Virus record (IMG/VR): IMGVR_UViG_3300032265_001399 | Location: 1-25,603 of that record | Length of the DNA: 25,603 bases | Origin: a virus | Strand: one strand, 5' to 3' | Part shown: positions 3,001-22,796 of the stretch, piece by piece | How positions within the stretch are numbered: position 1 is the stretch's first letter | Layout: each line of letters begins with the position of its first letter | Notes under the pieces: generated by a model | Seen by the model: only the letters and a program-made list of their open reading frames with translations | What the model was told of the DNA's origin: nothing | Databases searched by the model: none | Made by a program: the position numbers and the translations under genes

Positions 3001-6000
3001 ATTAAAAAAATAACTTATAGCGGAGTTATTATTACCAAGTTACAAACAGGATTTGAAGTTAAAGGGTACAGTATCACTCAGCCTTATTTTAAATATTATC
3101 CTTATTTGCAAACGGGACAAAAACTTAATGTAGGTGGCATTAGTGAAAGTTATTCAACTTGGACTCCAGGTCAACAATATATTGCCAACTCGGTGGTATT
3201 ATACAGCGGCCGCTATTATAGAGTTCTTTCAACTACAACTGCTGGTTCGTCATTTGACCCATCGGCATTTGCTTCGTTAGGCGAGTTACCAGTGACTGGC
3301 GGCGCCAATGCTGTTTTAAGAAAATTATGGGACAGAAGTAATCCTGTAGTAGTTCCTTATGGTACTGAATTTACAAAAATACAAGATGTTGTAGATTTCT
3401 TGCAAGGCTATGGCGAATGGTTAAAAGACCAAGGTTTTGTATTTGACGATTTTAACAGTAATTTAAATGCTGTTGCTAACTGGGAAAACAGTGCTCGAGA
3501 ATTTTTATTCTGGACTACACAAAATTGGAGTTCAGGGTCAGACAAATGGTCGGACTGGAGTCCCAACGAGCCTGTTGGGTATGGCACAGTTGTTAGGTAC
3601 AACGGAGATTATTACAGCGCATTGTATAACTTGGCCGCAACTGATATATTTGATCCAATCAAATATACTAAATTAGACGGATTAAGCAATATTGGCAGTA
3701 GTGTTATTAGTCTAAGTCCAAGTGCTAACAAATTAACATTTAATACTACTTTGGCTGTTGTGGATAATATTAGTAATCAGTTTTATGAATATGAAATATT
3801 CAAAGTAGACGGCACACCATTGGCTCCTCTGTTCTTAGATAGCTACAGAGAAAACAATATTGTAAGTTATAGTCCTCGAACAACTGATGGCATATATGGT
3901 GCAAGTTTTTATTTGATACAAAACGAACATGTTGTTACAATAGATAATACTACAATTTTTAATGATGTTGTTTACAACCCAGAAAGCGGTTATAGACAAG
4001 AGCGTGTGAAAGTATCAGGCCATGTCAGCGTTGACTGGTACGGCGGATTAGATGTTCCAGGCTTTATATTTGACCAAGCTAACATCAAACAATGGCAAAT
4101 ATGGCAAGACTATTCTTTGGGAGATATTGTAAACTATCAAGGATTTTATTACAGTGCATTATCTGCGTTGCCTGGAACAGAAACATTCAATGCAAACAGC
4201 TGGACTCAATTAGCAACAAAACCAACACCGCAACTAATTCCCAACTGGACATATAAAGCAAGTCAGTTTACTGATTTTTATAATCTTGATAGCGACAATT
4301 TTGACCTTGCCCAGCAAACCATGGCACATCATTTAATTGGTTATCAAAAGAGACAATACCTTAACAATATTATTCAAGATAATGTAAGCGAATTTAAATT
4401 TTTCCAAGGAATGATTCGTGAGAAAGGCACACAAAATAGTCTCAACAAACTATTTGATGTTTTAAGTTCTGATAATAAAGAAAGTCTTAAGTTTTACGAG
4501 GAGTGGGCAGTACGTGCAGGTCAGTACGGTGCTAGTAGAGCTTTTGAAAATATTGAATTTTTATTGGATGAAGGGTTATTTAGATTGAATCCTCAAGGAT
4601 TCCAACTGGTATCTACACCGGATACTAGTCTCAACAATACTTTTATTATACAACAAAAATCTACAGATGTATATTTAAAACCATTGGGTTATAATTCAAC
4701 TCCTTGGCCTGTGTTGTCAAATTATAAACCATTTTTGCGTAGCGCAGGTTATGTTAATTCAAAAGAAGTGGCAGTGAGTCTTGGCTATTTGCCAGAAATT
4801 GCATCTTTAAATATTGATACAATCAACGAAGGCGATTATATTTGGGTAGCTTTTGAAGGCCCAAGTTGGAACTTGTACAGATACACAGATATCCATATGT
4901 CTGTGACCAATGTTACTTATAATACAACTGCAAAAACTTTATCAATTACAGCAGAAAATTTAACAGGATTTGTAGTAGGATCATGGATAGGGCTTGCTCA
5001 AGTAGAAAAATTAAAAGGCTTCTATCAAATAACTAGTGTTTCTTTAAACACGTTTACAGTTGCGGCAACTATTTCTGGATTTCCAAGTCCCTTCACACAA
5101 AGCAATCAACTAGTAGTCTATGCATTGATTAGTCAACGAACTAGTAGTATAGACACATTAGATTCTATTCTTACATCAAAAATTACTTCAGGTGAACTGA
5201 TATGGACAGATGATAGCGGTAATGGCAAATGGGCTAGCTGGAAGTTCAATCCTGTTTATACAATATCAGATGTGAATAATTCTGCACCGCAATCACAGTT
5301 AAGATTTGGCAACACTATTGCTGTAAATAACAAAGGCACACTAGCCGCAGTTGGTTCAAGTTTTGGTGAATTAATAACTTACGACAAGGTAGGAACAGTA
5401 ACACCTTGGGTTCAACGACAAGTAGTATCGCCTCCATTCATTGCAACAAACGTGGTATCATTAACTATTGGTAATACTACAATCAATAGCACTACGGTAG
5501 TAATGTCAAGTGCAAACTCTTCCATGATTGGCGGATTCATTGAAGGTCCAGGCGTTCCTTATGAAACTCTAGTAGTATCGGCAATCAATGGAGTCAGTAT
5601 CACAATTAGCCAAAAAGCAAATGCAACAACTACAGCTTCAACATACACGATTACAAATAATCCAAATCCTGCCACAGTACTAGCAACTTCAATCGCATTT
5701 TCGGCAGACGGAACATGGATGGCCAGTGGAAGCCCATTGGCTGGCTATGCAGTAACAGACTATTTAGGTGTATATGATTCTACAAAAATTTATGGCCCAG
5801 GATTAATTGTTTCAACTGGAACTGGAACTGGTACAAAGTATTGGCAAGCATTAAGTAATGTACCAGTAAATACTCAGCCGGCCAGCAACTTAGCATATTG
5901 GGATCCAATTTATTATATACCAGTTGATTCTTATGGTACTTGGAATATAAATGATTCGTATGTTGCGAATACTTTAGTAGTATACAAATCAAAAGTTTAC

Positions 6001-9000
6001 AAATCTACAGTTAGTTTGTACGGTCAAGTAACAGTTAACGTATTAAGTACAAACGGTTCTAACTATATTTTAACTGCTGATACAACTGCTGGTCTTGCTC
6101 CTAATTACGAAATTATTTTTACAGGAAATGTATTTGGTGGAATATTATCTGGCGGAATATATTTTGTCTCTACAATTCTAAGTAGCACTACATTTACAAT
6201 TACAGCACTACAATATAGCACATTGTTGGCACCGGTAACGACTGCCTACGGATCAATGCAAGCTACACAGCAACCACAACCAACTCCAGATTCTGGCAAT
6301 GGCCAGTGGACATTACAAAATATTCAAGCTGGCCCAGCCGGGCAAGGTGTAATTAGTTTATACCAAAAAGATCCTAATAATATATACGGATTAGTTGACA
6401 CTATTATTAGTCCGTTCCCAGCTGCCAACGAAAACTTTGGTAGTAAAATTGTATTTGGAAACAACACAATGTACGTGTCTGCATCTGGGTATGGATCGAT
6501 CAATGTGATGTCTAATGCTACAATTAATAAATTAGGCCAGTTGACTATTAGTGGAACAATCACAGGCACAATTACAGTTGGACAAGTATTGAGCGGCGGT
6601 GGCCTACCAGAGAATACTTACTATATTACTGGCGGTAGTGGAACTATTTGGCAGACTAGTTACCAAGGTAACGATATTGCAAGTACAACAATTACTGCAT
6701 ACGGTCAATATGGCCGCGTTTACAAATTAAAATATGCAACTACTATTCAAGCCCAAAGCGCATACAATCCAGTCGGCAGTACTAATTCTACAATAGTAGT
6801 TACTAGTACAGCTGGCGTTCGTCCAGGAATGTATATAATCAATCCGGCATTTACCAGCAATCAATCTGTGGTACAGGTAATAGATTCTCGAACAGTATTG
6901 CTAAGTGGTAGTCCAAATTCTGTGCCAAGCGGCATTATAAAATTTGCAATCATTGGCTGGGGATATGACTTTACAGAAATTTATACAGGCACACAAATTG
7001 GTGCCAGCTTTGGAAACACCATTAGTTTAAGTCAAGACAATCTTACTCTTACAATTGGTGCAGATACTGGCACAATAAATGGTATCGTTAACATTTATAA
7101 AAATAATGGATCTGGTTTTAGTTTAATACAATCTTTACCGGGTACTACTAAAAACTTTGGTATCAGTACTAGTATATCAGATGATGGCACGTATATTGCA
7201 ATAGCCGATGACAGTGCCACAGTCAGTGGAGTAATACAACGAGGTGGTGTAACTGTTTATAACTTTAATGGTAGTAGATATACACCTTACCAGTCATTGA
7301 TTCCCCACGTTCCTGAAATTAATGGACACTTTGGTAATAAAATATCGTTCATGAACGATTATGAAACCATAGTAGTTTATAGTCAGTACGGAGACACAGT
7401 TATTACAACCACATTTGACGATAACACAACTACATTTGATAAAAACAGTACAGATTTTGTGTTCACACAAACCAATAGTGGACGTGTTGATGTTTACGAT
7501 ATGTATGCTACCAAATGGGTTTTCAGCGAAAGTTTAACTAAGTCTGCTTCAATTAAAGTTGCCGGTGAATTTATTAGAAACAACGTTTATCAGATTTTAA
7601 CTCTTGGCACCACTGACTTTACACAAATCGGTGCAAGTTCAAATACAATTGGTATAACTTTTACAGCTACTAGAGACGGATACGGAAACGGTACTGCGTC
7701 TTTGGTTACTAGTGAAACTTTGATTGACGATGGCTACGGAGTAGGATTTGCCGTAGGTTCCAATCATATTCTAGTAGGAGCACCCGAAGCAATTGACCAA
7801 GGAGTTAACTCGGGCAAAGTTTATGATTACGGTAAACCAAATAATAAATTTGCTTGGACTATTGATCACTCTGAAGTGGATAAGCCCGATGTTACAAAGA
7901 TTAAAAAAGCATTTTTGTATGATAGAATAACAGGAGAACTGGTTACTCATTTGGATGTTGTCGATATTGCTCAAGGAAAAATACCAGGGCCTGCCGACGA
8001 AGAAATAATGTATAAATCATTTTACGATCCGGCAAATTACAGCACAATTGATGGAGTTACAACAACTTCTTCTAGTGCCGCATGGACTACAAAACAAGTT
8101 GGACAATTATGGTGGGACTTGCGCACTGCAAAAATTATTGATGCATATGAAAACGATCCAGTTTATAGAAATACAAATTGGAACACATTAGCCACTGGCG
8201 CAAGTATTGATGTATACGAATGGGTTAGTACTAAATTAAAACCAAGCTCATGGGATGCACAAGCAGACACTCCGGCGGGGTTGGCCAACAATATTAGCGG
8301 CAAAAGTCTATACGGTGATGCAAAATACAGTATCAAGACAACATACAATACTGTAACATTATCCACAGTTACCACTTATTATTTCTGGGTTAAAAATAAA
8401 AAATTTATTCCAAATGTTCCTGGTCGAAATATGGCAGCGCAGGATGTGGCAAGTCTAATTGCTAATCCACGCGGCCAAGGATACGCTTACCTTGCATTGA
8501 CTGGACTTGATAGTTTTAGTCTAATCAATGTTAAGCCTTATTTGAAATCAAACGAAGTGGTATTAAGTGTTGAGTATTGGACAGGAACTAAAACTGATCA
8601 AAATGTACACAGTCATTGGAATATCATCAGCGACGATCCAACTACCTATATTCCGTTAGTAATTGAACAAAAATGGATTGACAGCCTATGCGGTAAAGAC
8701 ATCGCAGGTAGAGAAGTTCCTGATTTAAGTTTACCCGTTAAATTACGTTACGGAATTGAAAATCGACCACGTCAGAGCATGTTTGTTAATCGATTTGAGG
8801 CATTAAAACAGTTTGTTGAAACAGCAAATCAAATATTGTTAGCAAATCAAATTACCGAAGAAGCCAGCGTTGCCGCATTAAACGGATATGATCCTCAACC
8901 AACAATAATATCTGGACTGTATGATGTTACCTTCCCAACGGATACAGAACTAGCCTATGCCAGTACTGGTAGTTTTACTCGAGCAGTTATTTCACCAGTA

Positions 9001-12000
9001 GTTGCAGATGGCAGAGTTACTGGTGTAACAGTAATTTCATCTGGCAAGGGATATCTAGTAGCTCCATATCTTACAATAGTGGGTTCTGGCGTGGGTGCTA
9101 CAGTTAGAGCTACTATCAATACCAAAGGGCAAATCACAGGAGCTACCATAGTATCAAGCGGAGAAGGGTACAGCGACATCAATACCACTATCAAAGTGAG
9201 AGATTATTGTGCATTAGTACAAAGTGACAGTCAAGCTAACGGCAACTGGAGCATTTATAGTTATGATCCAGTACAAAAATCTTGGTCGAGAATTTTAACA
9301 CAAAGCTATGATGTAAGAGAATATTGGAATTATGCTGATTGGTATGGTTCTTATACTGATAGCACTGGTAGAGTAGTGTTTACTGCTTCTCAATTTACTG
9401 TTGCAACATTTTCGGTAGCCACATTCTTAGAGCTAAATGGTATCCAAACTGCAATTGGTGATACAGTTAAAGTTAGAACTACTAACGCTGGAGGCTGGGA
9501 ATTACTTTACAAATATTCTAATTCTACCAGTATAGATTGGACACAATCTTATGCCACAGTTGGCATACAAAACGGTACAATACAATTAAGTAGCAGTTTG
9601 TATAATCTATCTAATACAGATTTAGGATTTGATAATACTATTTTTGATAGCAACAGTTACGATAAAGTTGCTGCCATTGAATTGAGAATTATTTTAGATA
9701 CACTTAAAAATAAGATTTTTACTCAGCATACAAATCTTAATGGTGCTTATTCAGATTTATTCTTTGCTAGTGTACGATATGCACTAAGCGAACAGCCTTA
9801 TGTTGATTGGATTTTTAAAACTAGTTTTGTTAAGGCCCAACATAATGTTGGACAATTAAACCAACCAGTTACATATCAACCTGATAATTTATCTAACTTT
9901 GAAGACTACGTTAACGAAGTTAAACCTTACAAGACCAAAGTGAGAGAATATGTCAGTAACTATGACAGTTTAGATCCAGCAGAATTACCTATTACTGACT
10001 TTGATCTACAACCAATTTATCAAAACAATGCATTAACTGTTATTGATACTTTTGTAGACAGCGGAAAATTAGCAACAACCAATGCTATTGTACAACAGTA
10101 TCCATGGAAATTCTGGTTGGACAATGGTGGGTTTGAAGTAACTGAACTAACATTAACTGATAGTGGTGCTGATTATATAACTGAACCACAAGTAATTATT
10201 ACTAGTGATAGCGGTAATGGTGCAACAGCAAGAGCATTTATTTCTAACGGAAAAGTCAATAGAATTGTACTGTTGACTCCAGGAAGTGGATACCTATCTG
10301 CACCCAATGTAGAAATTCGCGGTGGCACATTGCTAGGCGGAACTAGCGCAAAGGCAAGTGCTATAATTGGCAATAGTGTTGTTCGTGGAACATTGGTTGG
10401 AATTAAATTTGATCGAGTGGATTCTACATATTTTATTACACAACAATCCAAGACCGAAACATTTACAGGTACTGGAAGTAGACAACAATTTCCATTGATT
10501 TGGGGTCCTGATATTAAAATAGGACAGAGTACTGTATACATTGATAATATCTTGGCATTACGAGATAGTTATATCATGTATATTGTTAAATCAACAAGTT
10601 TAGGATATACAACTTATTCGGGAATTATACAATTCAATACAGCTCCGGCTAAGGGTAGTTCTATCAGTGTAACTTATGTGATTGATCCATCGTTGATGCG
10701 AGCAACTGATAGAATACAGTATTTGTACAATTCATCTACGGGAGAATTAGGAAAAGATTTATCGCAATTAATGACAGGCATTGATTATGGAGGTGTAATT
10801 GTTGATGGTACAGGATTCCAAATATCTAACGGTTGGGACAGTTTACCTTATTATTCAGATCAATGGGATTCGTTTGACGAAACATTTACAGATTATAGTG
10901 TAGTCGTTGGTGCAGATACTCATGCATTTACATTACCCTATACGCCAGCCAACGGTGTACAATTAACACTGTATAGAAAACAAAGCCATACAGATACATA
11001 TCAATCTGATGGTGTAACAAAAATCTATACATATTCAACAGCCGATATTGCTCCTTATGTTACAGTTACAAATAATCTGGCAACAACGGGAGTGTCTGCC
11101 ACTTTTGCAAGCATTAATCGTATAGGAAGCCTATTTGGAACCATAGTGGTTGTTTCAAGTACCACTGGAATTGTTGCAGGTATGGGAGTTGTTGGTACAG
11201 GTTTTGCCAACGGTCAAACTGTTAGTTCTGTAACAAATGCAACCACATTGGTATTAAGTATTCCAGCAGACAGCCAGCCCAGTGGAACAATACAATTTAT
11301 TCGCAATGTTGTAGGTAGTGCAACTATAAATGTAACAAGCACTGCGGCTTTGAGACCTGGTGATGTTGTTACATTAAATAATTTGACTGCGTTTAGTTAC
11401 AACACTACAGTATTATCTATTCCAAATAGTACAACAGTCACTTTGAGCAACATCATTTATCAAACTATTCCTCCAGGAACGTTTATAACATTTACTCGTA
11501 AATTGATTCAGCCAACAGACGTTACTGTTAAAACTGATGGTACTATTGTATTAACCAATTTAGCTAACTCTAAAATATTTGCTGGAACACTGATTAATAT
11601 TATTGGACAAATTAATCCAGTACGTCTTGACGATCCAAATTACAACATCAAGCCTTATTTCCAACAATTGATAAATGCATTTGCATACGATACTGCTTTT
11701 ACCACTGGTGTGATAAGCAATGTACAAAGTATTTTTGTAGGGCTTGATATTCTGACACAAGTTACAACTTACGGATACGATGCCGTCACAACTGCGGCAA
11801 GTGTCACAGCACTAGCAAATAAAATATTAGCTATTCCATCAGTGGCCGCAAACAGCACAGCAGTTGCAACAATTAATACTAACCTTGCTAATATTGTAGG
11901 ACTAATTGATCAAGCTAACAGCGGAATTATTCCGACACCTGAGTTTCCGGCATATAACGGACTTGATCAGGGTTATACAAGTGCAGGCACACTGTTATTT

Positions 12001-15000
12001 GATAATATAACATTTATACAATTTGAGATGATTGCTTATATTACAGCAAACTATCCTAGTGCAAGCTATGATCAGAACGTATATCAGCAAGATGTACAAA
12101 ATACAGTGTGGAGTTTAATTTACGATTTAACATACGGTGGAAACAGTCAATCTGTTCAAACAGGATTGAGATATTGGTCTTCTAATAACAGTTTAAGAAC
12201 GGCTCTTGGCACAGCATGGACTGGAATTTACACTCGATTTGCCAGTATAGCACAAAGCATTATTACCAAATCAACAGTGACTAGATTACAAACAGTAGTC
12301 GCACAATATAAACCAACTGGTATTTTAACTGGAGGATCCATTGCAAGTACTAGAGTTTCAAATAATCTTGCTACAATTCAATCTATAGTTACGGCATTAG
12401 GTAGACCATCTCCAACAATAGTTGCACCAACACTAACTGCGGCACCAGTGGCATTACAAACAGTGGCAACTGGTATACTTAACGCATCGTTGACTCCAAA
12501 ATTTAATCCAAATGCAATTGTGAATACATTCCTATCTAATGGTTTGCCAGATGGAAATGGTGTAGTATCTAAAACATTTACTATTCCTACACCTTACACA
12601 TTGATTGACGGCGGAGCATCATACACTACACTTGATAATGAAATTGATGATGGTGGCAATGCAAGTTCATCACCATCCGTGATAGATGATGGTGGTAGTG
12701 CAATATCTACTGGATTTGTTGTATCTAATCTTGATGAGTTTACTATTAGACAAATTACCAGTGATGGCAGTATTAAACCTAAAGAATCTGATTATGATAC
12801 AGCATTAAATGGCGGAGATACTTCCACCACATTGAATGGTGTGTATGCTACTGCTACTGGATTAAGTGCTGATGATATTATCGTTGACGGCGATGATTTA
12901 ATCAGTACAACAACCAGTCCTGCACCAGAAGAAGTTGTTCCTGGACAAGTTGTTGATACTGTTGCAATTAAAGTGTTTGACAAACCATACAACGGTAGTG
13001 CAGTCATGCGAGTAGATAATTTTGTTGCTAATGGAACACAAAAGAGTTTTACATTGAGTCAAACACCTAACGGTAAAGGAGCGGTAATTGTAAAATTAAA
13101 CAATGCAATTAAAACACTAACTACCAATTATACTATAGACTATAGAAATAATTTAGTAGTGTTTACAACAGCCCCAGCAATTAATACACAAATTAGTTTA
13201 TTCAGTGTTGGATTTAACGGAGCAAATATTTTAGATATTGACCATTTTGTCTCTAACGGTTATAGTACTGAATTTGTCACAAATGCATCGTGGCAAACAG
13301 CTATTAGTGCGTTGATATATGTTGATGGTGTTGTTGTTAATCCTGAAATATTTAAAACTGATTCAAGTTATGATTTATCTAACGCAATTGCATTTAGATT
13401 TGCAGTTGCACCAGCCGAAGGCGCATTAATTAATTTTGTAATAGTTGCAGGCACTCAACAGACATTTGCTATTACCAAAGTAGAAACAGTTGCTACTAAC
13501 GGACAATTAACATACACATTGCAAAATAAAATAGGTACCAGTTTGCCAGCAGAGTCCAATATGATTGTGCGTGTAGATCAACAAATATTATCAGCACCGA
13601 ACAACAGTTACTTTACGATTGGTGGCAATAGATTAAATTATTCTATTGATTCTACTAAATTTGTTCCGTATTCAGTGGATATTAGTGCGCTTGTGGTACT
13701 AGTTGGTGGTGTTACTTTACGTCCAGGGCCAGATTATATTGCTGACCTTGGAGGAATTACAATTAAAATTACCAAGAAAATTTATAATTTGTATAAAGGT
13801 CAAACACTAGTTGTAAGTGTGTTAACTGGTGCTGGTTATTCTTATAATTCTACTACAGGGCAGATTACATTTGCTCAAGCATACGATAACACTCATGTGG
13901 TACAAGTTATCAGTAGTTACCAACATGATATTTTAGATATTCAACGTACTACAATTAACGTGATAGGAACATCTGAACTAGTACCTAATAGTGCAAGCTA
14001 TTTTTATTATCAAGATACTGCTGGCGGATTAATAACATTGGACCGTACTGTGATAAGCGATTATTATATTTGGGTAATTAAAAATTCATTATTGCTTACA
14101 CCCACAGTTGACTACAAATTAAATGATGATCATCAAAGTCTTACATTGGCCACACCTTTAAATACCAACGATCAAATCACATTAATGACATTTGGTTCTA
14201 ATATATTGACTTCTGGTGTTGCATATATGCAATTTAAAGATATGTTAAATCGTGTAAGCTATAAACGTTTAAGTACACCTAAACAAACAACATTGGCAAA
14301 CGATTTAAAATGGAACGATACAGTCATTGTTCTAGTGGATGGAAGTAATTTTGAATTACCAAGTCCAACTAATAACAAACCAGGAGTTGTTGAAATTCGT
14401 GGCGAACGCATTGAATATTTTGCTAAAAGCGGTAACACTCTAAGTCAATTGCGCCGTGGTACATTGGGCACCGGTGTATTTTTTAATAATTTTGCAGGCA
14501 CTCCAGTACAAGATATTGGTGCAAGCGAAACAATTCCTTATAAAGATACACAAGTGATAACACAAGTCATCAGTGACGGAACAAATGTAATAGCATTAGA
14601 CTTTATCCCAGCAGATGCAAATTCAATCGAAGTGTTTGTTGGCGGGTATAATACTGATAATGAATGGACCAGCGGTATTGATTACATAGTAGGAGCCATT
14701 GTAAAACAAGGACCATATACTTATAGATGTATAACTGCTCATACCAGCACAGCATTCTTTGATGATGCTGCCAAGTGGACATTCTTTATAGGTAACATTA
14801 GATTGAAGAAATCTCCATACAAGGTATTCAATGTTAATAATGCACCAAACAGTCCAGCTGGAGACGTAACATTCCCAGCAGACTTTACTGTTGACGGAAT
14901 AACCAAGCAAATAACACTAACTAATTTGTTAGACTTTGGAATACAAGTAACCGTGGTACAAAATACTGGTACAGCATGGGATAACACAACTAGTGTTCTG

Positions 15001-15153
15001 TACGATTCTGGAAAAATCAGTGAATTTTTAAGAGCCGAGCCCGGCATCTGGTACAGTCCATACAAGCAGATAAGTACTACATCAACTGGAACATTTGACA
15101 GTGCTGGGGATACAGTGGACAGTAATAATATAACATTCGATCAAGGAACGTAA
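1..15153 (+). CDS. Giant modular virion structural / adhesin-like protein (5' partial)
   Basis: The frame is open from base 1 to the TAA at 15151, giving 5,050 residues in the window. The codons before the TTG at base 70 also read as protein (NNWSRYNRWFHKD), so the true start lies upstream. The protein is a mosaic. It has strand-turn modules of the form 'YxNGxxLxxxxDY' (about 940-1075, 1636-1760, 13085-14200) and a Trp-rich block (2191-2385). Aromatic carbohydrate-binding-like modules lie at 3150-3285, 3526-3680, 4085-4225 and 14660-14790, and an FG-GAP/propeller-like region at 5291-7830. GxGY beta repeats lie at 8968-9198 and 10138-10389. Helical stretches occur near 1330-1500, 8770-8860 and 11640-12300, and an Asp/Gly-rich linker near 12600-12960. 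No signal peptide or enzyme motif was recognised. Giant mosaic proteins of this kind occur in large aquatic myoviruses as virion structural proteins. A tail-fibre or baseplate adhesin role is inferred from composition and neighbours. It is followed after one base by the next gene, with AAGGA upstream of that ATG. Confidence 0.85.
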   Translation, partial: SNDANNWSRYNRWFHKDVIAASSLYNGNPVNLNQTARAIRPIIEFNSDLKLANFGTTAVADVDILDDYTTDAFSIVEGSFAYSVDGVALAEGQRIIFTADPDVLVKNKIFQVTFVNVLHLNNGSRQIHLVEISSPELNQVALVKFGSKYQGKAFWYNGTSWIQGQVKTKVNQPPLFDVVDENGISYSDTGVYNGSTFVGTTLFSYKLGSGTTDNALGFPLSYRNISNIGDIVFNFTLATDTFQYKNGTALLTQAINTGYLVSQTFAGKLIYKNGWQLCTAPHTQAAIRIYKNSGITNYFNLDIFDDITNLDDLVVRVYINGHRLDPTAWTLIDAPTYKQVQLKTDIVLSDVLTIRAFAAQPINDTGYYEIPVNLQNNPLNNIMGDFTLGEVIDHVNSIVDNLDNTFIGTFPGSGNLRDLGNVTQYGTKFVQHSGPMSLAIYHITSEANNVIRSVEQARDDYNSFKRNFIKIASNLGVDGDAVTITNLVLQKINKDKPKTSPYYFSDMIPYGACTITDLNVVDYRIKQYPLSNPFNLTELSNKAVGIYLNGKQLVYGQDYTLLDTGFVVIDNSVNMATGDVITTREYDSTDGCFVPATPTKIGMWPKFVPKIYTDTSLVTPRVMIQGHDGSQVLAYGDHRDDLILELEKRIFNNIKVQYDTSIFDITDIVPGYNRSTDYSLSEFNEVLAPNFYKWTSLAGRDFTKPLSYNITNPFTYNYSNSVGPDGKSVPGYWRGIYRWLLDTDRPNLCPWEMLGFSIEPSWWSTVYGVGPYTGDNLPMWQDISDGMVREPGVPAVKLSKYVKPFLMNHIPVNSDGTLLSPIDSGLVSGPITPSVDGNFVFGDVSPVEAAWRRSSHYSFSVIISAALLTPAKVFGLLLDRSNIKRNLAGQLIYAKTNLRVRPADIVLPSIYSSTTRVQTAGLINYMVDHILNFVFSNNIRDYNQYATDLATLTSQISYRVGAFTSKEQFNLLLDSKTPLSTGSVFIPQENYHVNINTSSPIKKITYSGVIITKLQTGFEVKGYSITQPYFKYYPYLQTGQKLNVGGISESYSTWTPGQQYIANSVVLYSGRYYRVLSTTTAGSSFDPSAFASLGELPVTGGANAVLRKLWDRSNPVVVPYGTEFTKIQDVVDFLQGYGEWLKDQGFVFDDFNSNLNAVANWENSAREFLFWTTQNWSSGSDKWSDWSPNEPVGYGTVVRYNGDYYSALYNLAATDIFDPIKYTKLDGLSNIGSSVISLSPSANKLTFNTTLAVVDNISNQFYEYEIFKVDGTPLAPLFLDSYRENNIVSYSPRTTDGIYGASFYLIQNEHVVTIDNTTIFNDVVYNPESGYRQERVKVSGHVSVDWYGGLDVPGFIFDQANIKQWQIWQDYSLGDIVNYQGFYYSALSALPGTETFNANSWTQLATKPTPQLIPNWTYKASQFTDFYNLDSDNFDLAQQTMAHHLIGYQKRQYLNNIIQDNVSEFKFFQGMIREKGTQNSLNKLFDVLSSDNKESLKFYEEWAVRAGQYGASRAFENIEFLLDEGLFRLNPQGFQLVSTPDTSLNNTFIIQQKSTDVYLKPLGYNSTPWPVLSNYKPFLRSAGYVNSKEVAVSLGYLPEIASLNIDTINEGDYIWVAFEGPSWNLYRYTDIHMSVTNVTYNTTAKTLSITAENLTGFVVGSWIGLAQVEKLKGFYQITSVSLNTFTVAATISGFPSPFTQSNQLVVYALISQRTSSIDTLDSILTSKITSGELIWTDDSGNGKWASWKFNPVYTISDVNNSAPQSQLRFGNTIAVNNKGTLAAVGSSFGELITYDKVGTVTPWVQRQVVSPPFIATNVVSLTIGNTTINSTTVVMSSANSSMIGGFIEGPGVPYETLVVSAINGVSITISQKANATTTASTYTITNNPNPATVLATSIAFSADGTWMASGSPLAGYAVTDYLGVYDSTKIYGPGLIVSTGTGTGTKYWQALSNVPVNTQPASNLAYWDPIYYIPVDSYGTWNINDSYVANTLVVYKSKVYKSTVSLYGQVTVNVLSTNGSNYILTADTTAGLAPNYEIIFTGNVFGGILSGGIYFVSTILSSTTFTITALQYSTLLAPVTTAYGSMQATQQPQPTPDSGNGQWTLQNIQAGPAGQGVISLYQKDPNNIYGLVDTIISPFPAANENFGSKIVFGNNTMYVSASGYGSINVMSNATINKLGQLTISGTITGTITVGQVLSGGGLPENTYYITGGSGTIWQTSYQGNDIASTTITAYGQYGRVYKLKYATTIQAQSAYNPVGSTNSTIVVTSTAGVRPGMYIINPAFTSNQSVVQVIDSRTVLLSGSPNSVPSGIIKFAIIGWGYDFTEIYTGTQIGASFGNTISLSQDNLTLTIGADTGTINGIVNIYKNNGSGFSLIQSLPGTTKNFGISTSISDDGTYIAIADDSATVSGVIQRGGVTVYNFNGSRYTPYQSLIPHVPEINGHFGNKISFMNDYETIVVYSQYGDTVITTTFDDNTTTFDKNSTDFVFTQTNSGRVDVYDMYATKWVFSESLTKSASIKVAGEFIRNNVYQILTLGTTDFTQIGASSNTIGITFTATRDGYGNGTASLVTSETLIDDGYGVGFAVGSNHILVGAPEAIDQGVNSGKVYDYGKPNNKFAWTIDHSEVDKPDVTKIKKAFLYDRITGELVTHLDVVDIAQGKIPGPADEEIMYKSFYDPANYSTIDGVTTTSSSAAWTTKQVGQLWWDLRTAKIIDAYENDPVYRNTNWNTLATGASIDVYEWVSTKLKPSSWDAQADTPAGLANNISGKSLYGDAKYSIKTTYNTVTLSTVTTYYFWVKNKKFIPNVPGRNMAAQDVASLIANPRGQGYAYLALTGLDSFSLINVKPYLKSNEVVLSVEYWTGTKTDQNVHSHWNIISDDPTTYIPLVIEQKWIDSLCGKDIAGREVPDLSLPVKLRYGIENRPRQSMFVNRFEALKQFVETANQILLANQITEEASVAALNGYDPQPTIISGLYDVTFPTDTELAYASTGSFTRAVISPVVADGRVTGVTVISSGKGYLVAPYLTIVGSGVGATVRATINTKGQITGATIVSSGEGYSDINTTIKVRDYCALVQSDSQANGNWSIYSYDPVQKSWSRILTQSYDVREYWNYADWYGSYTDSTGRVVFTASQFTVATFSVATFLELNGIQTAIGDTVKVRTTNAGGWELLYKYSNSTSIDWTQSYATVGIQNGTIQLSSSLYNLSNTDLGFDNTIFDSNSYDKVAAIELRIILDTLKNKIFTQHTNLNGAYSDLFFASVRYALSEQPYVDWIFKTSFVKAQHNVGQLNQPVTYQPDNLSNFEDYVNEVKPYKTKVREYVSNYDSLDPAELPITDFDLQPIYQNNALTVIDTFVDSGKLATTNAIVQQYPWKFWLDNGGFEVTELTLTDSGADYITEPQVIITSDSGNGATARAFISNGKVNRIVLLTPGSGYLSAPNVEIRGGTLLGGTSAKASAIIGNSVVRGTLVGIKFDRVDSTYFITQQSKTETFTGTGSRQQFPLIWGPDIKIGQSTVYIDNILALRDSYIMYIVKSTSLGYTTYSGIIQFNTAPAKGSSISVTYVIDPSLMRATDRIQYLYNSSTGELGKDLSQLMTGIDYGGVIVDGTGFQISNGWDSLPYYSDQWDSFDETFTDYSVVVGADTHAFTLPYTPANGVQLTLYRKQSHTDTYQSDGVTKIYTYSTADIAPYVTVTNNLATTGVSATFASINRIGSLFGTIVVVSSTTGIVAGMGVVGTGFANGQTVSSVTNATTLVLSIPADSQPSGTIQFIRNVVGSATINVTSTAALRPGDVVTLNNLTAFSYNTTVLSIPNSTTVTLSNIIYQTIPPGTFITFTRKLIQPTDVTVKTDGTIVLTNLANSKIFAGTLINIIGQINPVRLDDPNYNIKPYFQQLINAFAYDTAFTTGVISNVQSIFVGLDILTQVTTYGYDAVTTAASVTALANKILAIPSVAANSTAVATINTNLANIVGLIDQANSGIIPTPEFPAYNGLDQGYTSAGTLLFDNITFIQFEMIAYITANYPSASYDQNVYQQDVQNTVWSLIYDLTYGGNSQSVQTGLRYWSSNNSLRTALGTAWTGIYTRFASIAQSIITKSTVTRLQTVVAQYKPTGILTGGSIASTRVSNNLATIQSIVTALGRPSPTIVAPTLTAAPVALQTVATGILNASLTPKFNPNAIVNTFLSNGLPDGNGVVSKTFTIPTPYTLIDGGASYTTLDNEIDDGGNASSSPSVIDDGGSAISTGFVVSNLDEFTIRQITSDGSIKPKESDYDTALNGGDTSTTLNGVYATATGLSADDIIVDGDDLISTTTSPAPEEVVPGQVVDTVAIKVFDKPYNGSAVMRVDNFVANGTQKSFTLSQTPNGKGAVIVKLNNAIKTLTTNYTIDYRNNLVVFTTAPAINTQISLFSVGFNGANILDIDHFVSNGYSTEFVTNASWQTAISALIYVDGVVVNPEIFKTDSSYDLSNAIAFRFAVAPAEGALINFVIVAGTQQTFAITKVETVATNGQLTYTLQNKIGTSLPAESNMIVRVDQQILSAPNNSYFTIGGNRLNYSIDSTKFVPYSVDISALVVLVGGVTLRPGPDYIADLGGITIKITKKIYNLYKGQTLVVSVLTGAGYSYNSTTGQITFAQAYDNTHVVQVISSYQHDILDIQRTTINVIGTSELVPNSASYFYYQDTAGGLITLDRTVISDYYIWVIKNSLLLTPTVDYKLNDDHQSLTLATPLNTNDQITLMTFGSNILTSGVAYMQFKDMLNRVSYKRLSTPKQTTLANDLKWNDTVIVLVDGSNFELPSPTNNKPGVVEIRGERIEYFAKSGNTLSQLRRGTLGTGVFFNNFAGTPVQDIGASETIPYKDTQVITQVISDGTNVIALDFIPADANSIEVFVGGYNTDNEWTSGIDYIVGAIVKQGPYTYRCITAHTSTAFFDDAAKWTFFIGNIRLKKSPYKVFNVNNAPNSPAGDVTFPADFTVDGITKQITLTNLLDFGIQVTVVQNTGTAWDNTTSVLYDSGKISEFLRAEPGIWYSPYKQISTTSTGTFDSAGDTVDSNNITFDQGT
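5291..7830 (+). other. FG-GAP / beta-propeller-like region inside the giant protein
   Basis: Within the giant protein there are recurrent segments of the form 'FGxxIxxxxDxxxxxIGxxxG', each followed by a short strand such as 'VxxYxxxG'. Examples start near 5297 (FGNTIAVNNKGTLAAVGS), 6436 (FGSKIVFGNN), 7009 (FGNTISLSQDN), 7150 (FGISTSISDDGTYIAIAD) and 7327 (FGNKISFMND). The series ends near 7745 with GFAVGSNHILVGAP. This spacing and the Phe-Gly/Asp-Gly pattern are those of FG-GAP or integrin-alpha-like propeller blades. Copies are interrupted by inserted modules, including aromatic ones at 5760-6010 and a 'TTDFTQIGASSNTIG' module at about 7557-7700. Whether a closed propeller forms cannot be decided by eye. 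Confidence 0.55.
8968..9198 (+). repeat. GxGY beta-repeat pair, first copy (within giant protein)
   Basis: The protein here contains two consecutive half-repeats: VTGVTVISSGKGYLVAPYLTI, then an alternating Gly/Ala segment (GSGVGATVRATI), then ITGATIVSSGEGY. The pattern 'V-x-x-V-x-V-x-x-x-G-x-G-Y-x-x-x-P-x-V-x-I-x-G-x-G-x-G-A' recurs at 10138-10389. It is a common beta-strand repeat in phage fibre and adhesin proteins. Its function is not known to me. Confidence 0.6.
10138..10389 (+). repeat. GxGY beta-repeat pair, second copy (within giant protein)
   Basis: This is a second instance of the same pattern: DSGADYITEPQVII, then a Gly/Ala strand (SGNGATARAFI), then VNRIVLLTPGSGY and LSAPNVEIRGG. 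It lies about 940 bases after the first copy. The two are alike in pattern but clearly diverged in sequence, which suggests old duplication or independent acquisition of a mobile structural module. Confidence 0.6.
12600..12720 (+). repeat. Asp-Gly-Gly (IDDGG) repeat and acidic linker within the giant protein
   Basis: The protein carries three closely spaced DGG motifs: LIDGGASY, EIDDGGNASS and VIDDGGSAIS. The two IDDGG copies share the exact 11-base stretch GATGATGGTGG at 12646-12656 and 12685-12695. An Asp/Thr/Ser-rich, probably flexible stretch continues to about 12960 (LSADDIIVDGDDLIST). It separates an alpha-helical segment upstream (about 11640-12300) from the C-terminal run of strand-turn modules. 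It may be a linker or a calcium-binding turn series, and neither is proven. Confidence 0.55.
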
Positions 15154-15154
15154 G

Positions 15155-16888
15155 ATGTCGCAAAATATAATTAACATAGGTACAGTAGCAGGAGATCACA
15201 CAGGTGATAGTTTGCGTACAGCCGGGCAAAAAATAAATGCAAACTTTACAGAACTGTATGGTACACTAGCATCTACAGCGTTACCTACGAGAACTGGCAA
15301 TAACGGTAAAGCATTGTTCACTGACGGCACAGCAGTTTATTGGGCACCAGTGGTTGCTACCAATGGAGTTGTAACTACTGGTAGTTATCCTGATCCTAGT
15401 TGGATTACAAGTTTAAGCTATGGAAAAATTACAAACGTACCCACAGCAACTACAAGTATAGCAGGTGTAGTACAAGTTGATGGCACCACAATTAGAATTA
15501 ATAACGGTGTGATTTCTGCAACCCCTACAACAAGCACTCTAACCAACGGTTCGGCTACAGTTGTTCTCAGTTCAGGCGGTGGGTTAACATTTCCTAATCT
15601 ATCTTCTTTTACTGGCACAGATTTACACTCGGCACCTAATACATATATTGAACTTTCTAGTAACGATGGCAATAATGTTGTAGGCGCTCAAAACAATTCT
15701 GTATTCGTACAAACAGCCTTTAGTACTTACAACTATACTTGGACTTTTGGAATTGACGGTAATTTAACCATTCCTAAAAACTTAGCATTCAAAGGAAGTG
15801 CCAGCGGCTCAGTTTCATTTAATGCGGGCACAACACCAGCAGTACAAACATACACATTGCCCAGTGCATATCCTGGTGTTAACAATTATGTGTTGGCAAG
15901 TTCAACTACCGGAACTTTAAGTTGGATATTGCCAACTGGTGCTGGTACAGTTACCAGTGTTACTCTAGCTTTACCTAGTCAATTTAATGTAACCATACCC
16001 ACAGTGACCACATCTGGTAATTTAACAGCCGCTTGGAATACACAAACTGCCAATTATGTACTAGCAGGTCCAACAACCGGAAGTGCAGCCGCACCCGTAT
16101 TCCGTGCGCTAGTTGCCGCAGACATTCCATCACTATCATATCAAGCACCTATCGGAACAATTAGCGGACTTGCTAAAGGTAACGGAGCAAATACTCTTAC
16201 AGCCGCAGTAGCCGGAGTTGATTATCAAACAGCGCAAAGTGTTACCGGTATAGTAAAATCAAGCGGAACAACACGTTCGGCAGCAACTAGCGGAACTGAT
16301 TATGCTCCAGGAACAAGCGCATTGGCAACCGGTATTGTAAAAAGTACAACTACAACTGGCGCATTAACCATTGCCACTGCCACTGATCTTAACGCAACAT
16401 TTGGAAGCCAAACACAAAATTATGTGTATGCCGCACCAAGCTCGGGATCCGGCACTCCTACTTTCCGGCTATTAACAGTTACTGATATGCCAATATCAGG
16501 TCTGCAAAGTCGATCAACAGCATCGGCAACCACTGGAAGTTTGGCATATCAAACAAGTTCAACTGTTACAATTCCAGTTGCTAAGGGCTATGCTTTATAT
16601 AATGTACAGACTAGTGTAGGAGCCTGGGTAACCGTTTACACAAACAGTACTGCAATGTCTAATGATAGCGGAAGAAGTATTACAACTGATCCAACTCCTG
16701 GTAGTGGCGTAGTTGCTGAATCTATAACAACTGGAAATTCTACCACTAATACATCTTTTTCACCAGCAGTGATTGGATATAATATAGATAGTCCAGTAAC
16801 TACTAATTTATATTTAAAAGTTTATAACAATAGCGGATCTACTAATGCTATTACAGTTACTTTAACATATTTAAAATTGGAAGTATAA
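15155..16888 (+). CDS. Tail-fibre / adhesin-like structural protein (577 aa)
   Basis: The ATG lies one base after the stop of the giant gene, with AAGGA 7 bases upstream, so translation is probably coupled. Residues 5-36 (INIGTVAGDHTGDSLRTAG..KINANFTELY) match a recurrent N-terminal motif of phage fibre proteins. Residues about 295-325 and 418-449 are two copies of 'QTxNYVxAxPxxGSxxxPxFRxLxxxDxP'. They are separated by a segment ending in 'GIVKSSGTTRSAATSGTDYAPGTS'-type repeats, which are known from fibre-like proteins. The C-terminal domain (about 449-577; KGYALYNVQTSVGAWVTVYT, later DPTPGSGVVAE) is a beta domain often found at the tip end of fibres in aquatic phages. I see no enzyme motif, signal peptide or cysteine. 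A role in host attachment is inferred. The next gene, the S53 peptidase, starts one base after this stop. Confidence 0.8.
   Translation: MSQNIINIGTVAGDHTGDSLRTAGQKINANFTELYGTLASTALPTRTGNNGKALFTDGTAVYWAPVVATNGVVTTGSYPDPSWITSLSYGKITNVPTATTSIAGVVQVDGTTIRINNGVISATPTTSTLTNGSATVVLSSGGGLTFPNLSSFTGTDLHSAPNTYIELSSNDGNNVVGAQNNSVFVQTAFSTYNYTWTFGIDGNLTIPKNLAFKGSASGSVSFNAGTTPAVQTYTLPSAYPGVNNYVLASSTTGTLSWILPTGAGTVTSVTLALPSQFNVTIPTVTTSGNLTAAWNTQTANYVLAGPTTGSAAAPVFRALVAADIPSLSYQAPIGTISGLAKGNGANTLTAAVAGVDYQTAQSVTGIVKSSGTTRSAATSGTDYAPGTSALATGIVKSTTTTGALTIATATDLNATFGSQTQNYVYAAPSSGSGTPTFRLLTVTDMPISGLQSRSTASATTGSLAYQTSSTVTIPVAKGYALYNVQTSVGAWVTVYTNSTAMSNDSGRSITTDPTPGSGVVAESITTGNSTTNTSFSPAVIGYNIDSPVTTNLYLKVYNNSGSTNAITVTLTYLKLEV
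16037..16500 (+). repeat. Two copies of the NYV-A-P-GS-FR-L-D-P fibre repeat
   Basis: Within the 577-aa fibre gene, the segments encoding NYVLAGPTTGSAAAPVFRAL (from about 16049) and NYVYAAPSSGSGTPTFRLL (from about 16418) are diverged copies of one motif. Between them lie the GTDYAPGTSALATGIVKS-type repeats. Such modules are shared among many phage and bacterial surface fibres and are prone to recombination. Confidence 0.65.
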
Positions 16889-16889
16889 C

Positions 16890-18548
16890 ATGAATTTATC
16901 TAACACCATCGCGTTAGTTGGAAGTACAGCATCTACAATACCAGATGGTGCCACAATAACACTATTAGATTCTTCAACAAACTTGTCAGTTACTATATTA
17001 GTTTGTCGACAAACTAATAACGGAACTTTAAAAGAATATGCTGATGGAATTATCAATGGTACTAATCCAATAATATCACATGATGAATTAAAAAGTATGT
17101 TTGGTGCAACAGATGAAAATTTAAATCTAGTAGAAGATTTTGTCCAAGCATATAATTTAACAGTAGTTAGATCTTATAATAGAGGCGCAAATGTAGTAGT
17201 ATCTGGGCCAGCAAGTGCCTTTAATCGAGCATTTGATATATCTTTAAAATCTGTAAGTGTAGAAGGTAGGAATTATGTTAACTACATTGGTAATCTATCT
17301 ATTCCTGCTGAATTAGAAAATATCATTACTCATGTTATTGGTTTAGATGATACATTAGTGCTTAAAAAATCGCAAACAAATGTATCCAATGGGATTACTT
17401 CAAATACTGTCACTCCTCTTACTCCTCAGCAAGTTGCTTCTGCTTATCAATGGCCAGCTGGTGACGGGTATGGTCAGTGTGTGGGCATCATTGAACTTGG
17501 TGGCGGATTTACCAATCAAAATTTAACTAGTACGTTTACACAAATGGGTATTGCCACACCAACTGTGAATTTTGTATCAGTTGATAGTGCTACAAATAAT
17601 CCCAGCGATGCTGGTAGTAGCGGAGAAGTTATGCTGGATATTGCAGTAGTTGGTGGAGCTGTACCAAGAGCTACCCAAGCAATTTATATTGGACCAAACT
17701 CAGCACAAGGATTTGTTGATGTATTTTTAGCCGCAGTAAATGATACCACAAATTTGCCATGTGTTATTTCTTGTAGTTGGGGCGGCAATGAATCAGGATT
17801 TGGCACTTATGCCACAGCAATGGATACAGCGTTTCAATCAGCAGCCGCAATTGGAATACCAGTATTTGTAGCTACTGGAGATTACGGATCAGAGTATTAT
17901 TATGGTGCTGGATATGTGTCAGTTCAGTATCCTGCGGCAAGTCCTTATGTGACTGGCTGTGGTGGAACCACTTTAGATACAACCAACGGAACATTGAACA
18001 GCGAAGTTGTATGGAATCAAGGAAATGCCGGTAGTGCCGGAGGAGTCAGCACAATATATTCTGTGCCGGCTTACCAAACAGGATTCACAGTGAAAGCATA
18101 CCCGTCGGGAACTGTAACAACACTTACAGGTCGAGGAATTCCTGATATAGGAGGAAATGCAAGCCCATCATCTGGGTATCAATATTACTATGGATCGGGT
18201 AATTCTTATGTGGGAACAGGCGGCGGTACTAGCGCAACTGCACCCTTGTATGCTGGACTAGTTGCTAGATTAACTGCATTGACTGGTAAAAGATTGGGAT
18301 TTTTAAACACACTATTTTACAACAATATTAATATATTTAGAGATGTAACGTCTGGAAATAATGCTTGTCCGTTGTCTACTGGATACAGTGCAAGGGCAGG
18401 ATGGGATGCTTGCACGGGTTGGGGCAGTATTGTAGGCACATCGCTTTACCAATTATTACATGTAGGAACTACATATCCTAAGCAAAATTACGGATTCAGA
18501 CCCTCAACTGGCTTGGCATATCCTAGAAAAACAACCGGCGCTCGTTAA
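16890..18548 (+). CDS. Phage-encoded pro-kumamolisin-type peptidase (sedolisin, family S53)
   Basis: This is a serine-carboxyl endopeptidase zymogen of 552 aa. Residues about 30-170 fit the S53 activation prodomain (VTILVCRQ near 33; NVVVSGPASAFNRAF near 107). The mature domain should begin near TPLTPQQVASAYQWP (175-189). Catalytic Glu246 and Asp250 lie in GEVMLDIAVVGG, the oxyanion Asp331 in ATGDYGSEYY, and the nucleophile Ser448 in GGGTSATAP. Glu202 (IIELGGG) corresponds to the accessory Glu of kumamolisins. Spacings 4, 81 and 117 are close to kumamolisin's 4, 82 and 114. The calcium site is represented by Asp485-Val486, Gly504 and Asp506 (AGWDACTGWG). All key residues are present, so it should be active. 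I see no signal peptide or membrane segment. Residues 524-552 form a basic, Tyr/Pro-containing tail beyond the fold. The ATG is one base after the fibre stop, with GGAAG 6 bases upstream. Family members are typically acid-active and calcium-dependent. The substrate is unknown; adhesin processing or host-surface degradation are inferences. Confidence 0.93.
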   Translation: MNLSNTIALVGSTASTIPDGATITLLDSSTNLSVTILVCRQTNNGTLKEYADGIINGTNPIISHDELKSMFGATDENLNLVEDFVQAYNLTVVRSYNRGANVVVSGPASAFNRAFDISLKSVSVEGRNYVNYIGNLSIPAELENIITHVIGLDDTLVLKKSQTNVSNGITSNTVTPLTPQQVASAYQWPAGDGYGQCVGIIELGGGFTNQNLTSTFTQMGIATPTVNFVSVDSATNNPSDAGSSGEVMLDIAVVGGAVPRATQAIYIGPNSAQGFVDVFLAAVNDTTNLPCVISCSWGGNESGFGTYATAMDTAFQSAAAIGIPVFVATGDYGSEYYYGAGYVSVQYPAASPYVTGCGGTTLDTTNGTLNSEVVWNQGNAGSAGGVSTIYSVPAYQTGFTVKAYPSGTVTTLTGRGIPDIGGNASPSSGYQYYYGSGNSYVGTGGGTSATAPLYAGLVARLTALTGKRLGFLNTLFYNNINIFRDVTSGNNACPLSTGYSARAGWDACTGWGSIVGTSLYQLLHVGTTYPKQNYGFRPSTGLAYPRKTTGAR

Positions 18549-18600: not shown

Positions 18601-19209
18601 ATGCAGACCAAAGATCAGACAGGAATACATATTGAGGGTCATATCAAGATCCATGACCCAGTTTCTAAGGAAGTTTTCATTGATAAACGCAATGCAATTC
18701 ACTACGAAAATATCAGTTTGGCTCTGGCTCAAAGTTTAGCTGATAGTGGTAGTGGGTTTGTTTATCAAATGGCATTTGGCAACGGCGGAACCAGTATAGA
18801 TCCAACTGGAATTGTTACATATCTGACTCCAAACACTAGCGGAACTAATGCAAGTTTGTACAATCAAACCTATGCCAAAGTAGTTAATCAGAATTCCAGT
18901 AATAACACGGACCCTAGTAGAAATTTTATTGAAACACGCCATACAACTGGCACTAATTATACAGATTTATTAGTAACTTGTTTGCTAGATTACGGTGAGC
19001 CAAGTACACAAAGCGCATTTGATACAGTGACTAACAGTAATAGTCAATATGTGTTTGATGAGTTAGGATTAAAAAGTTACAACACAGATGGCACCAGCTT
19101 GTTATTAACCCACGTTGTTTTCCACCCAGTACTTAAAAGTCTAAATCGTCTAATACAGATTGATTATACTGTGCGTATTCAAAGTTTAACCGGATTGGTA
19201 GGAGTATAA
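18601..19209 (+). CDS. Conserved phage virion protein of unknown function (202 aa)
   Basis: The gene follows a late-promoter-like box and begins a three-gene cluster; the next ATG is 3 bases after its stop. The N-terminal half has IEGHIKIHDP, then NAIHYENISLALAQSLAD (about residues 32-49). These are followed by FVYQMAFGNGGTSIDPTGIV (54-73). The C-terminal part has FDELGLKSYN and LLLTHVVFHPVLKSLNRLIQIDYTVRI. I recognise this pattern as a family seen beside tail-fibre genes in T4-like aquatic phages, but I know of no assigned function. There is no signal peptide, membrane segment or catalytic motif. A tail or baseplate-associated structural role is inferred from position only. AGAG upstream at 18591-18594 supports this start. 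Confidence 0.75.
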   Translation: MQTKDQTGIHIEGHIKIHDPVSKEVFIDKRNAIHYENISLALAQSLADSGSGFVYQMAFGNGGTSIDPTGIVTYLTPNTSGTNASLYNQTYAKVVNQNSSNNTDPSRNFIETRHTTGTNYTDLLVTCLLDYGEPSTQSAFDTVTNSNSQYVFDELGLKSYNTDGTSLLLTHVVFHPVLKSLNRLIQIDYTVRIQSLTGLVGV

Positions 19210-21618: not shown

Positions 21619-22748
21619 TGAGCTATACGATAAAATTAACAAATAACAACACGTTAACTGAGATAATTGACGGTACAATTAATCAGACAAGTACAGATCT
21701 AACACTTGTAGGAAAAAATTCTACAGGATACGGAATCTATTTCAACGATAATTTTGTACATTTACTAGAAAACTTTGCAAATACAAGTCAGCCAAACAAT
21801 CCAATTACTGGGCAAGTTTGGTTTGACACTACACAAAATAGGCTAAAAGTTTATGATGGTGCTCAGTTTAAAGTAACAGGCGGAACACTGGTAAGTGCTA
21901 CAGTTCCTAGTAGCTTGACAACTGGCGATATTTGGATCAACAGTGCTACAGCACAGCTTTATTTTAATGATGGTATTAGTAATGTGCTAGCTGGCCCACT
22001 ATACACTAGCAGTCAAGGACAGAGCGGATTTATTGTAGATACTATTCTTGATATTAACAAAGTTCCCCATACAATTGTATATTTGTATTGTGCCAGTAAT
22101 TTATTAGGAGTGTTTGCTTCCGAAGCATTTACACCTGCAACTCCAATTAGCGGATATGCAGGTAGTATTAGTGTTGGTTTTAATGTGAGTAGTTATAGTG
22201 GAGTTCAGTTTAATGTTCCTGTATTAACAGCGGCCAATTTATTGGGCGCCGACGGGCATACACTGTATTCTGCAGACAGTTTTGTATCAACTAACGGAAA
22301 TTCTACAATTTCTAGCGGTACACTGACTATTCAAAATACATCACTTACACCAGCACTAGTATTAGGAGCAGGCAGCAACAACGAAATTAACTCATCCACT
22401 AGCACATTTCAAATTAAATCAAATACCGCAAATCAGAATTTTGAGGTAGCCACACTAAGTAGCACTGGATTAACTTCAGCTATCTATATCAGCTCTCAAA
22501 ACAAATTTATGGGTATCTTTAAAGGTACTCCAACAGCCGCATTAGATGTAAACGGAGCAATTAAATCAACTTCGACTATTACAGCTACTGGAGCAATTTC
22601 TGCTTCTGCCCTGACTGTAACTAGCAGTTATACACCTTCTAGTGCTACAAGTACAGGTACTACTGGGCAGATTGCTTGGGATGCAAACTACATTTATGTT
22701 TGTACAGCTACGAATACATGGCGAAGAGCGCCGCTGAGTACGTGGTAA
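21618..22748 (+). CDS. Short tail-fibre paralogue with CTATNTW C-terminus (376 aa)
   Basis: The ATG overlaps the previous TAA as TAATG, so it is probably translated by termination-reinitiation; I see no strong ribosome site of its own. Residues about 1-130 match the shared fibre N-domain (GKNSTGYG, LLENFAN, GQVWFD, LKVYDG, LTTGDIW). The middle holds AALDVNGAIKST, a fibre-shaft motif. The C-terminus (GQIAWDANYIYVCTATNTWRRAPLSTW) is a recurrent terminal motif in phage structural proteins. It lacks the collar domain of the preceding gene and the G2-like domain of the following one. It may be a fibre or a fibre-associated subunit with a different tip. Function is inferred from paralogy. Confidence 0.8.
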   Translation: MSYTIKLTNNNTLTEIIDGTINQTSTDLTLVGKNSTGYGIYFNDNFVHLLENFANTSQPNNPITGQVWFDTTQNRLKVYDGAQFKVTGGTLVSATVPSSLTTGDIWINSATAQLYFNDGISNVLAGPLYTSSQGQSGFIVDTILDINKVPHTIVYLYCASNLLGVFASEAFTPATPISGYAGSISVGFNVSSYSGVQFNVPVLTAANLLGADGHTLYSADSFVSTNGNSTISSGTLTIQNTSLTPALVLGAGSNNEINSSTSTFQIKSNTANQNFEVATLSSTGLTSAIYISSQNKFMGIFKGTPTAALDVNGAIKSTSTITATGAISASALTVTSSYTPSSATSTGTTGQIAWDANYIYVCTATNTWRRAPLSTW

Positions 22749-22764
22749 TAAGAGCTAAAATAAT

Positions 22765-22772
22765 GATAAATA
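22765..22772 (+). promoter_or_regulatory. Putative T4-type late promoter box (GATAAATA)
   Basis: GATAAATA lies in the 48-base gap between the 376-aa and 498-aa fibre genes, 24 bases before the ATG at 22797. It is the same TGATAAATA found before 18601. Ribosome-site candidates downstream are AAGGA (22782-22786) and GGAG (22791-22794). The repeat of the box in the only two gene gaps of about 50 bases inside the module supports a promoter role. Confidence 0.55.
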
Positions 22773-22796
22773 CTCAAGAATAAGGAAACAGGAGCA

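Follow-up and report, generated by a model that had tools for sequence, protein, structure and literature searches.

A phage sedolisin as one option of an exchangeable protease cassette in the baseplate gene cluster

The window, the whole 25,603-nucleotide stretch of viral DNA analysed here, which forms one IMG/VR record, belongs to a giant water-borne phage and encodes an S53 peptidase (sedolisin) that is one option of an exchangeable cassette made up of the distal part of a pin protein, the C-terminal domain of that protein (C-dom) and a protease; the alternative option is an S8 subtilase carrying the same C-terminal tag. Dozens of related phages have either S53 or the unrelated S8 peptidase in the same place and with the same tag, which suggests interchangeable tail proteases. 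We consider it likely that the sedolisin is a virion-borne, exchangeable enzyme that docks through its tag on the baseplate pin and acts on host surface proteins, with the docking, the substrate and the activity all being inferred.

The sedolisin gene and its neighbourhood

The features of the window, all on the plus strand, are the following.

1..15153, +, giant virion structural protein (phrog_10938; baseplate cluster), 5050 aa, 5' end open
15067..15150, +, C-terminal tail of the giant protein (..TFDSAGDTVDSNNITFDQGT), TFD..TFDQG type; proposed pin docking site
15155..16888, +, gp10-like pin/fibre protein, 577 aa, with a T4 gp9/10-type N-terminal domain (PF07880)
16472..16885, +, C-dom, beta-sandwich, last 138 aa of the pin protein; proposed tag docking site
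16890..18548, +, S53 (pro-kumamolisin type) peptidase, 552 aa, ATG start, from ORF, Pfam and alignment; prodomain about residues 25-154, catalytic domain about residues 175-524
18465..18545, +, C-terminal tag of the S53 peptidase, residues 526-552, GTTYPKQNYGFRPSTGLAYPRKTTGAR
18601..19209, +, phrog_11259 virion protein, synteny anchor
19213-21618, 21618-22748 and 22797-24293, +, three fibre/collar-type tail proteins in the same direction

The initial annotation had read the gene at 16890 as a full pro-kumamolisin of family S53, and this reading is borne out by database searches. Pfam Pro-kuma_activ (PF09286) matches residues 25-154 with an E value of 6.7e-17, exceeding the gathering score, and phmmer against PDB sequences retrieved kumamolisin (1t1e, residues 31-523, E 2e-98) and kumamolisin-As (1sio, E 3e-82); the absence of an S53 or pro-kumamolisin profile match, which would have refuted the assignment, can thus be discounted. 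No family covering the S53 protein was found in PHROGs or NCBIfam. The residues E202, E246, D250, D331, S448, D485 and D506, to which functions had been assigned from the sequence, are every one at the position given for them. E246 and D250 align with the acid pair of kumamolisin, D331 with its oxyanion Asp and S448 with its nucleophile, and this catalytic Glu-Asp-Ser set with the oxyanion Asp, which marks membership of the family, is conserved throughout the clade of the window: E246, D250 and D331 are invariant among 47 viral S53 sequences, S448 is kept in all 46 that are long enough to include it, and the calcium-site residues D485 and D506 are conserved as well. Since the first 13 S53 sequences aligned share merely 40-47% identity with that of the window, the retention of the catalytic residues is the pattern expected from purifying selection on catalysis. 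The gene thus encodes, as far as sequence can tell, a complete and apparently active S53 zymogen, its activity being inferred without assay data. The AlphaFold model of the protein (pLDDT 42, alignment depth of just 13 sequences) is too poor to judge the fold, and a putative subtilisin-like fold with converging residues is supported only by the alignment to solved homologues. The N-terminus has no strong signal-peptide-like segment.

The position of the gene among virion genes, as claimed at first, was confirmed: it lies in a baseplate cluster, directly behind the gene for a T4 gp10-like pin. Single-base gaps had been described on both sides; the upstream one is real (the pin gene ends at 16888 and its C-dom at 16885, placing the S53 gene, which begins at 16890, directly behind the C-dom gene), but 52 bases separate the S53 gene from the ORF at 18601. 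The label 'giant adhesin' for the 5050-aa protein did not hold up, as its phrog_10938 match denotes a virion structural protein of the baseplate cluster and an adhesin function is not proven. Within 1-15153 there are two weak CBM_5_12 carbohydrate-binding matches, at about residues 1053-1083 and 4888-4918 of the giant protein. The N-terminal parts of the tail proteins at 19213-24293 are weakly related (phrog_15511, phrog_14394, phrog_8309); a collar domain is present in the first of the three, and the third matches Peptidase_G2, a self-cleaving chaperone, weakly and below threshold.

The phrog_11259 protein of the window shows 53% identity to its counterpart in Sinorhizobium phage Phosso and 49% to that in Agrobacterium phage Atu_ph07, and also matches the CBB, GAP32 and PBECO4 group. 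In Phosso the baseplate wedge genes are followed by the giant structural protein and the phrog_11259 protein, without a protease, and Atu_ph07 likewise has none at this slot. Judged from these identities and gene orders, the window is a fragment of a T4-type jumbo phage that is Rak2/Atu_ph07-like. Three large contigs all gave a match to the T4-type head protease, and none of them to the sheath family. CBB_230, a homologue of the phrog_11259 neighbour, was represented by two peptides in CBB virions by mass spectrometry (PMC5259590).

Distribution and phylogeny of viral S53 peptidases

Eighty viral loci were gathered through the phrog_11259 neighbour and were therefore selected independently of the protease. 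Full-length S53 occupies the same slot at 13 of them, with 37-45% identity to the window protein, and additional scans of viral contigs brought the distinct viral S53 ORFs to dozens; the gene is thus no peculiarity of one contig. The phylogeny against bacterial S53 and other viral contigs that the initial annotation had proposed, built from 125 catalytic domains by a quick search with SH-aLRT support only, places the window protein in a viral-only clade (34/34 rows, SH-aLRT 100), apart from 57 bacterial sequences, and a second viral group is nested among bacterial S53. Identity of the window protein reaches 54% to viral S53 and amounts to 35-42% to the nearest bacterial S53 retrieved. By tblastn against 50,697 phage records no S53 was detected in any cultured phage, and we found no phage sedolisins in the open-licence literature; judged from that literature, this phage-specific sedolisin branch has apparently not been described in phages before.

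Several variants were observed among the viral S53 genes (loci are designated by L numbers). The second group (L157-L198, e.g. L162 8001-9140 and L194 7950-9107) is tagless and consists mostly of the mature domain only; in L162 and L194 the gene adjoins endolysin genes (Amidase_2 with an r1t-type holin, and NLPC_P60 with GH25). In L106 (7971-10553), L149 (4429-7827) and L152 (7959-12467) a prodomain S53 is fused to cadherin-like or Ig-like domains, suggesting surface display, and comes with neither a tag nor a partner C-dom; of these, L149 and L152 belong to the window clade, and L106 was left out of the tree. The S53 proteins of L126-L132 (e.g. L131 7911-9146), 407-411 aa long, no longer have a prodomain but retain both the YPR tag and a neighbouring C-dom. 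The prodomain-less S53 of a 345 kb record lies far from the phrog_11259 slot.

The C-terminal tag and its partner domain

Tagged phage S53 proteins all end close to GTTFPKxNYGFRPxTGxxYPRxTTGxR, an ending that plasmid and chromosomal bacterial S53 do not have. The core of this tag, P......RPxTGxxYPR, is common to phage S53 and phage S8 subtilases, the S8 C-termini showing the tag residues at identical spacing. A profile trained solely on 32 S53 tags recognises 80 of 103 distinct phage S8 C-termini (best E 7e-11), none of 87 bacterial S53 and only four of 8140 other ORFs, at least three of which are small tag proteins. Scanning IMG/VR with a DNA pattern of the tag matched at least 108 ORFs; the matches listed include at least 83 S8, at least 14 S53, at least five small proteins of about 100 aa and at least six cases of apparent out-of-frame noise. 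In the contexts examined, the tag is borne by both kinds of peptidase and by small stand-alone proteins, with C-dom nearby. In L140 (1-1686) the S53 protein has a collagen-like GPTGPQ repeat followed by two tandem copies of the tag.

C-dom comprises the last 126-138 residues of the upstream pin. It forms the very end of the gene product encoded ahead of 145 of 146 S8 genes and of 72 of 77 S53 genes (the largely prodomain-less group left out). The phrog_11259 loci divide into 18 with protease and C-dom, two with protease only, three with C-dom only and 51 with neither, so that C-dom lies upstream at 18/20 loci with a protease versus 3/54 without one; the Fisher p value of 3e-12 overstates the strength of this co-occurrence because the loci are related and do not count as independent cases. 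In one of the genomes scored as C-dom only, a second C-dom lies next to an S53 gene elsewhere. When tag and upstream C-dom are scored over all S53 ORFs, 70 have both, 52 neither, four the tag only and three C-dom only; two of the last three have a degenerate tag and one is truncated, and the four tag-only ORFs all come from one lineage (L054, L055, L098, L100). In these four the tagged S53 gene stands directly behind the giant gene, with neither pin nor C-dom in the records, those of L054 and L055 being 24.7 and 37.5 kb.

AlphaFold predicts C-dom with high confidence as an all-beta sandwich (pLDDT 94, pTM 0.86), that is, on the model, a jelly-roll-like domain. A fold search of the PDB returned only generic jelly rolls (best Z 8.1), and a viral library returned cyanophage fibre proteins. 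Kinship with the extra domain of subtilisin Tk-SP (3afg) was considered and set aside, its Z score of 7.4 being too weak to claim. In L309 a single C-dom gene is followed by two tandem S8 genes.

Exchange of the protease cassette

Sister phages have S8 subtilases in the same slot, with Asp, His, Asn and Ser all intact. L018 (S53) and L411 (S8) match at 80% across the giant gene and into the pin gene as far as about codon 40, and an 88% match resumes 8 bases past the protease stop; nothing is alignable between these flanks, indicating block exchange of the distal pin together with C-dom and the protease. Comparison of the window with L013, which lacks pin and S53, shows an insertion, the flanks aligning up to 15053 and from 18545. 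On the phrog_11259 gene tree, many branches of which are poorly supported, the state of the slot changes at least 24 times. The TFD..TFDQG tail of the giant protein was present at 25 loci, each with a pin gene behind it, and at none of 37 pin-less loci, suggesting that this tail is what holds the pin; nine pin-bearing loci do not have the strict TFDQG pattern, most of them showing visible variants. That S53 might belong to acid waters (bog lakes) and S8 to neutral or marine water is only a lead, there being no sample-origin data.

Cultured phages and virion evidence

In the Synechococcus phages S-H38, S-CREM1, ACG-2014h, S-WAM2 and S-RSM4 an S8 gene directly follows the C-dom gene, and in S-H38 and S-CREM1 the order pin, then S8, is kept. 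S-SCSM1_228, annotated as 'baseplate wedge subunit (virion protein)', holds an S8 match. Other cultured phages have a third kind of cargo, a protein of 500-900 aa followed by a 77-113 aa protein whose C-terminus is the tag in S-SCSM1 and Sf-CH1b and a variant of it in S-BM3 and ACG-2014i. A similar order was seen in L336 (5427-7243) and L323 (1767-4822), where the C-dom gene is followed by a 504- or 913-aa protein with no assigned function and by a separate tag-ending protein of ~100 aa.

The cyanophage P-SS2, a siphovirus, provides the most direct evidence for tag and C-dom as virion parts, there being no proteomics for S53: mass spectrometry of its purified particles detected both ORF087, which contains C-dom, with an average of 11 peptides, and the tagged ORF090, a non-protease, with 4 peptides (PMC2784084).

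Proposed mechanism and alternative explanations

We propose that the giant wedge protein would hold the pin through its TFDQG-type tail, and that C-dom at the C-terminus of the pin would in turn hold the protease through the YPR tag; the latter step is inferred from co-occurrence and block exchange, with no binding data. Once the prodomain had been removed, the tail-borne protease would cut host surface proteins during attachment, the candidate targets being envelope, S-layer or sheath proteins, or decoy receptors. Some observations count against this host-surface model: the L054, L055, L098 and L100 lineage has a tagged S53 without upstream C-dom, and S53 enzymes are usually acid-active while we know of no acid step in such a phage. 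Viewed more broadly, we lean, with reserve, towards a plug-in system of lake and ocean tailed phages in which the C-terminal beta-sandwich of a pin or fibre binds the tag of any enzyme as a replaceable tail-tip tool, the cargo being a sedolisin (the window S53 would be one such tool), a subtilisin, another cargo or a small separate tag protein.

The initial annotation had offered two functions, a virion-borne protease that opens the host surface and a processor of the giant protein or fibres. A maturation protease that cuts the giant protein, the pin or the fibres as the virion is assembled, with no action on the host, would accord with an S53 gene that lies within the baseplate cluster and immediately follows that of a possible substrate, and the zymogen form would fit a timed assembly; the head proteases of T4-like phages are a precedent for assembly proteases. 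Yet most close relatives keep the giant protein and fibre genes with neither protease nor pin, an S8 peptidase with a different active site substitutes in a near-identical setting, and the genomes checked have a separate S77 head protease. Because close relatives do without any protease and an unrelated peptidase family can replace S53, the virion-borne host-surface protease fits better than processing, which we consider improbable; a protease that only part of the relatives have, that turns over fast and that can give way to another peptidase family is better suited to an accessory role in attachment than to an obligatory maturation cut. More doubtful again is an enzyme not attached to the particle but freed at lysis or active inside the host, as a lysis aid or in the degradation of host proteins. 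Free bacterial S53 enzymes are secreted, which supports this idea, and the separate second viral S53 group adjoins endolysin genes in some contigs; the window clade has a conserved tag and a partner domain instead, the tagged proteins of P-SS2 are virion components and the S53 N-terminus is not strongly signal-peptide-like.

Of more weight, though still unlikely in our view, is the possibility that tag and C-dom merely travel together in a recombination cassette and that the tag, which is short and rich in proline and arginine, serves in folding or trimerisation and plays no part in docking. Exchange alone would produce their co-occurrence, but two peptidase families and small separate proteins bear the tag with C-dom near in the contexts examined, and the tag is absent from 52 of the 56 S53 ORFs without upstream C-dom. 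A chimeric contig or recent bacterial contamination can hardly be maintained, nothing beyond the rarity of viral S53 speaking for it. A chimera joined at 16890 or 18548 is ruled out since S53 occupies the same slot in 13/80 independent contigs; synteny across many contigs, the S53 genes of the 345 kb and 355 kb records (one in each, together with a T4-type head protease), the viral-only clade and the phage-only tag all stand against such an origin.

Comparison with known systems

Most virion-borne enzymes described in tailed phages degrade polysaccharides (depolymerases) or the cell wall (lysins), and tail proteases have been little explored. An S53 branch that shares its slot, tag and partner domain with subtilisins makes the use of surface proteolysis by phages testable. 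With the tag and C-dom as markers, tail-borne enzymes could be predicted on the basis of sequence, without other data, and a natural short tag with its proposed docking domain is a possible route to attaching enzymes to phage tails.

Like kumamolisin and kumamolisin-As (MEROPS S53; 1t1e, 1sio), the window protein has a prodomain and a catalytic domain, the Glu/Asp/Asp/Ser residues and the calcium-site aspartates; unlike them, it has a phage-specific C-terminal tag of ~27 residues, a location in a baseplate cluster and no strong signal-peptide-like N-terminus. The S8 enzymes of T4-like cyanophages (phrog_9158; S-H38, S-CREM1, S-RSM4) are also clan SB peptidases encoded directly behind a C-dom pin or fibre gene, with a tag that is clear in S-H38 and degenerate in S-RSM4, but they belong to a different peptidase family with a different active site. 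These genes are annotated in the phage records, and no study of their function was found in the open-licence literature. Modular tailspike depolymerases of the G7C and CBA120 type are virion-borne, exchangeable enzymes docked via adaptor domains and resemble the arrangement proposed here in having a conserved attachment site; unlike the window S53, they cut polysaccharide and attach by N-terminal domains rather than by a short C-terminal tag. As in the gp7-gp10 wedge and pin of T4, the gene for a giant wedge protein is followed by that for a gp10-like pin with a PF07880 N-terminal domain. To our knowledge the T4 pin carries no protease, and C-dom at the C-terminus of the pin is, in contrast to T4, specific to the group of the window.
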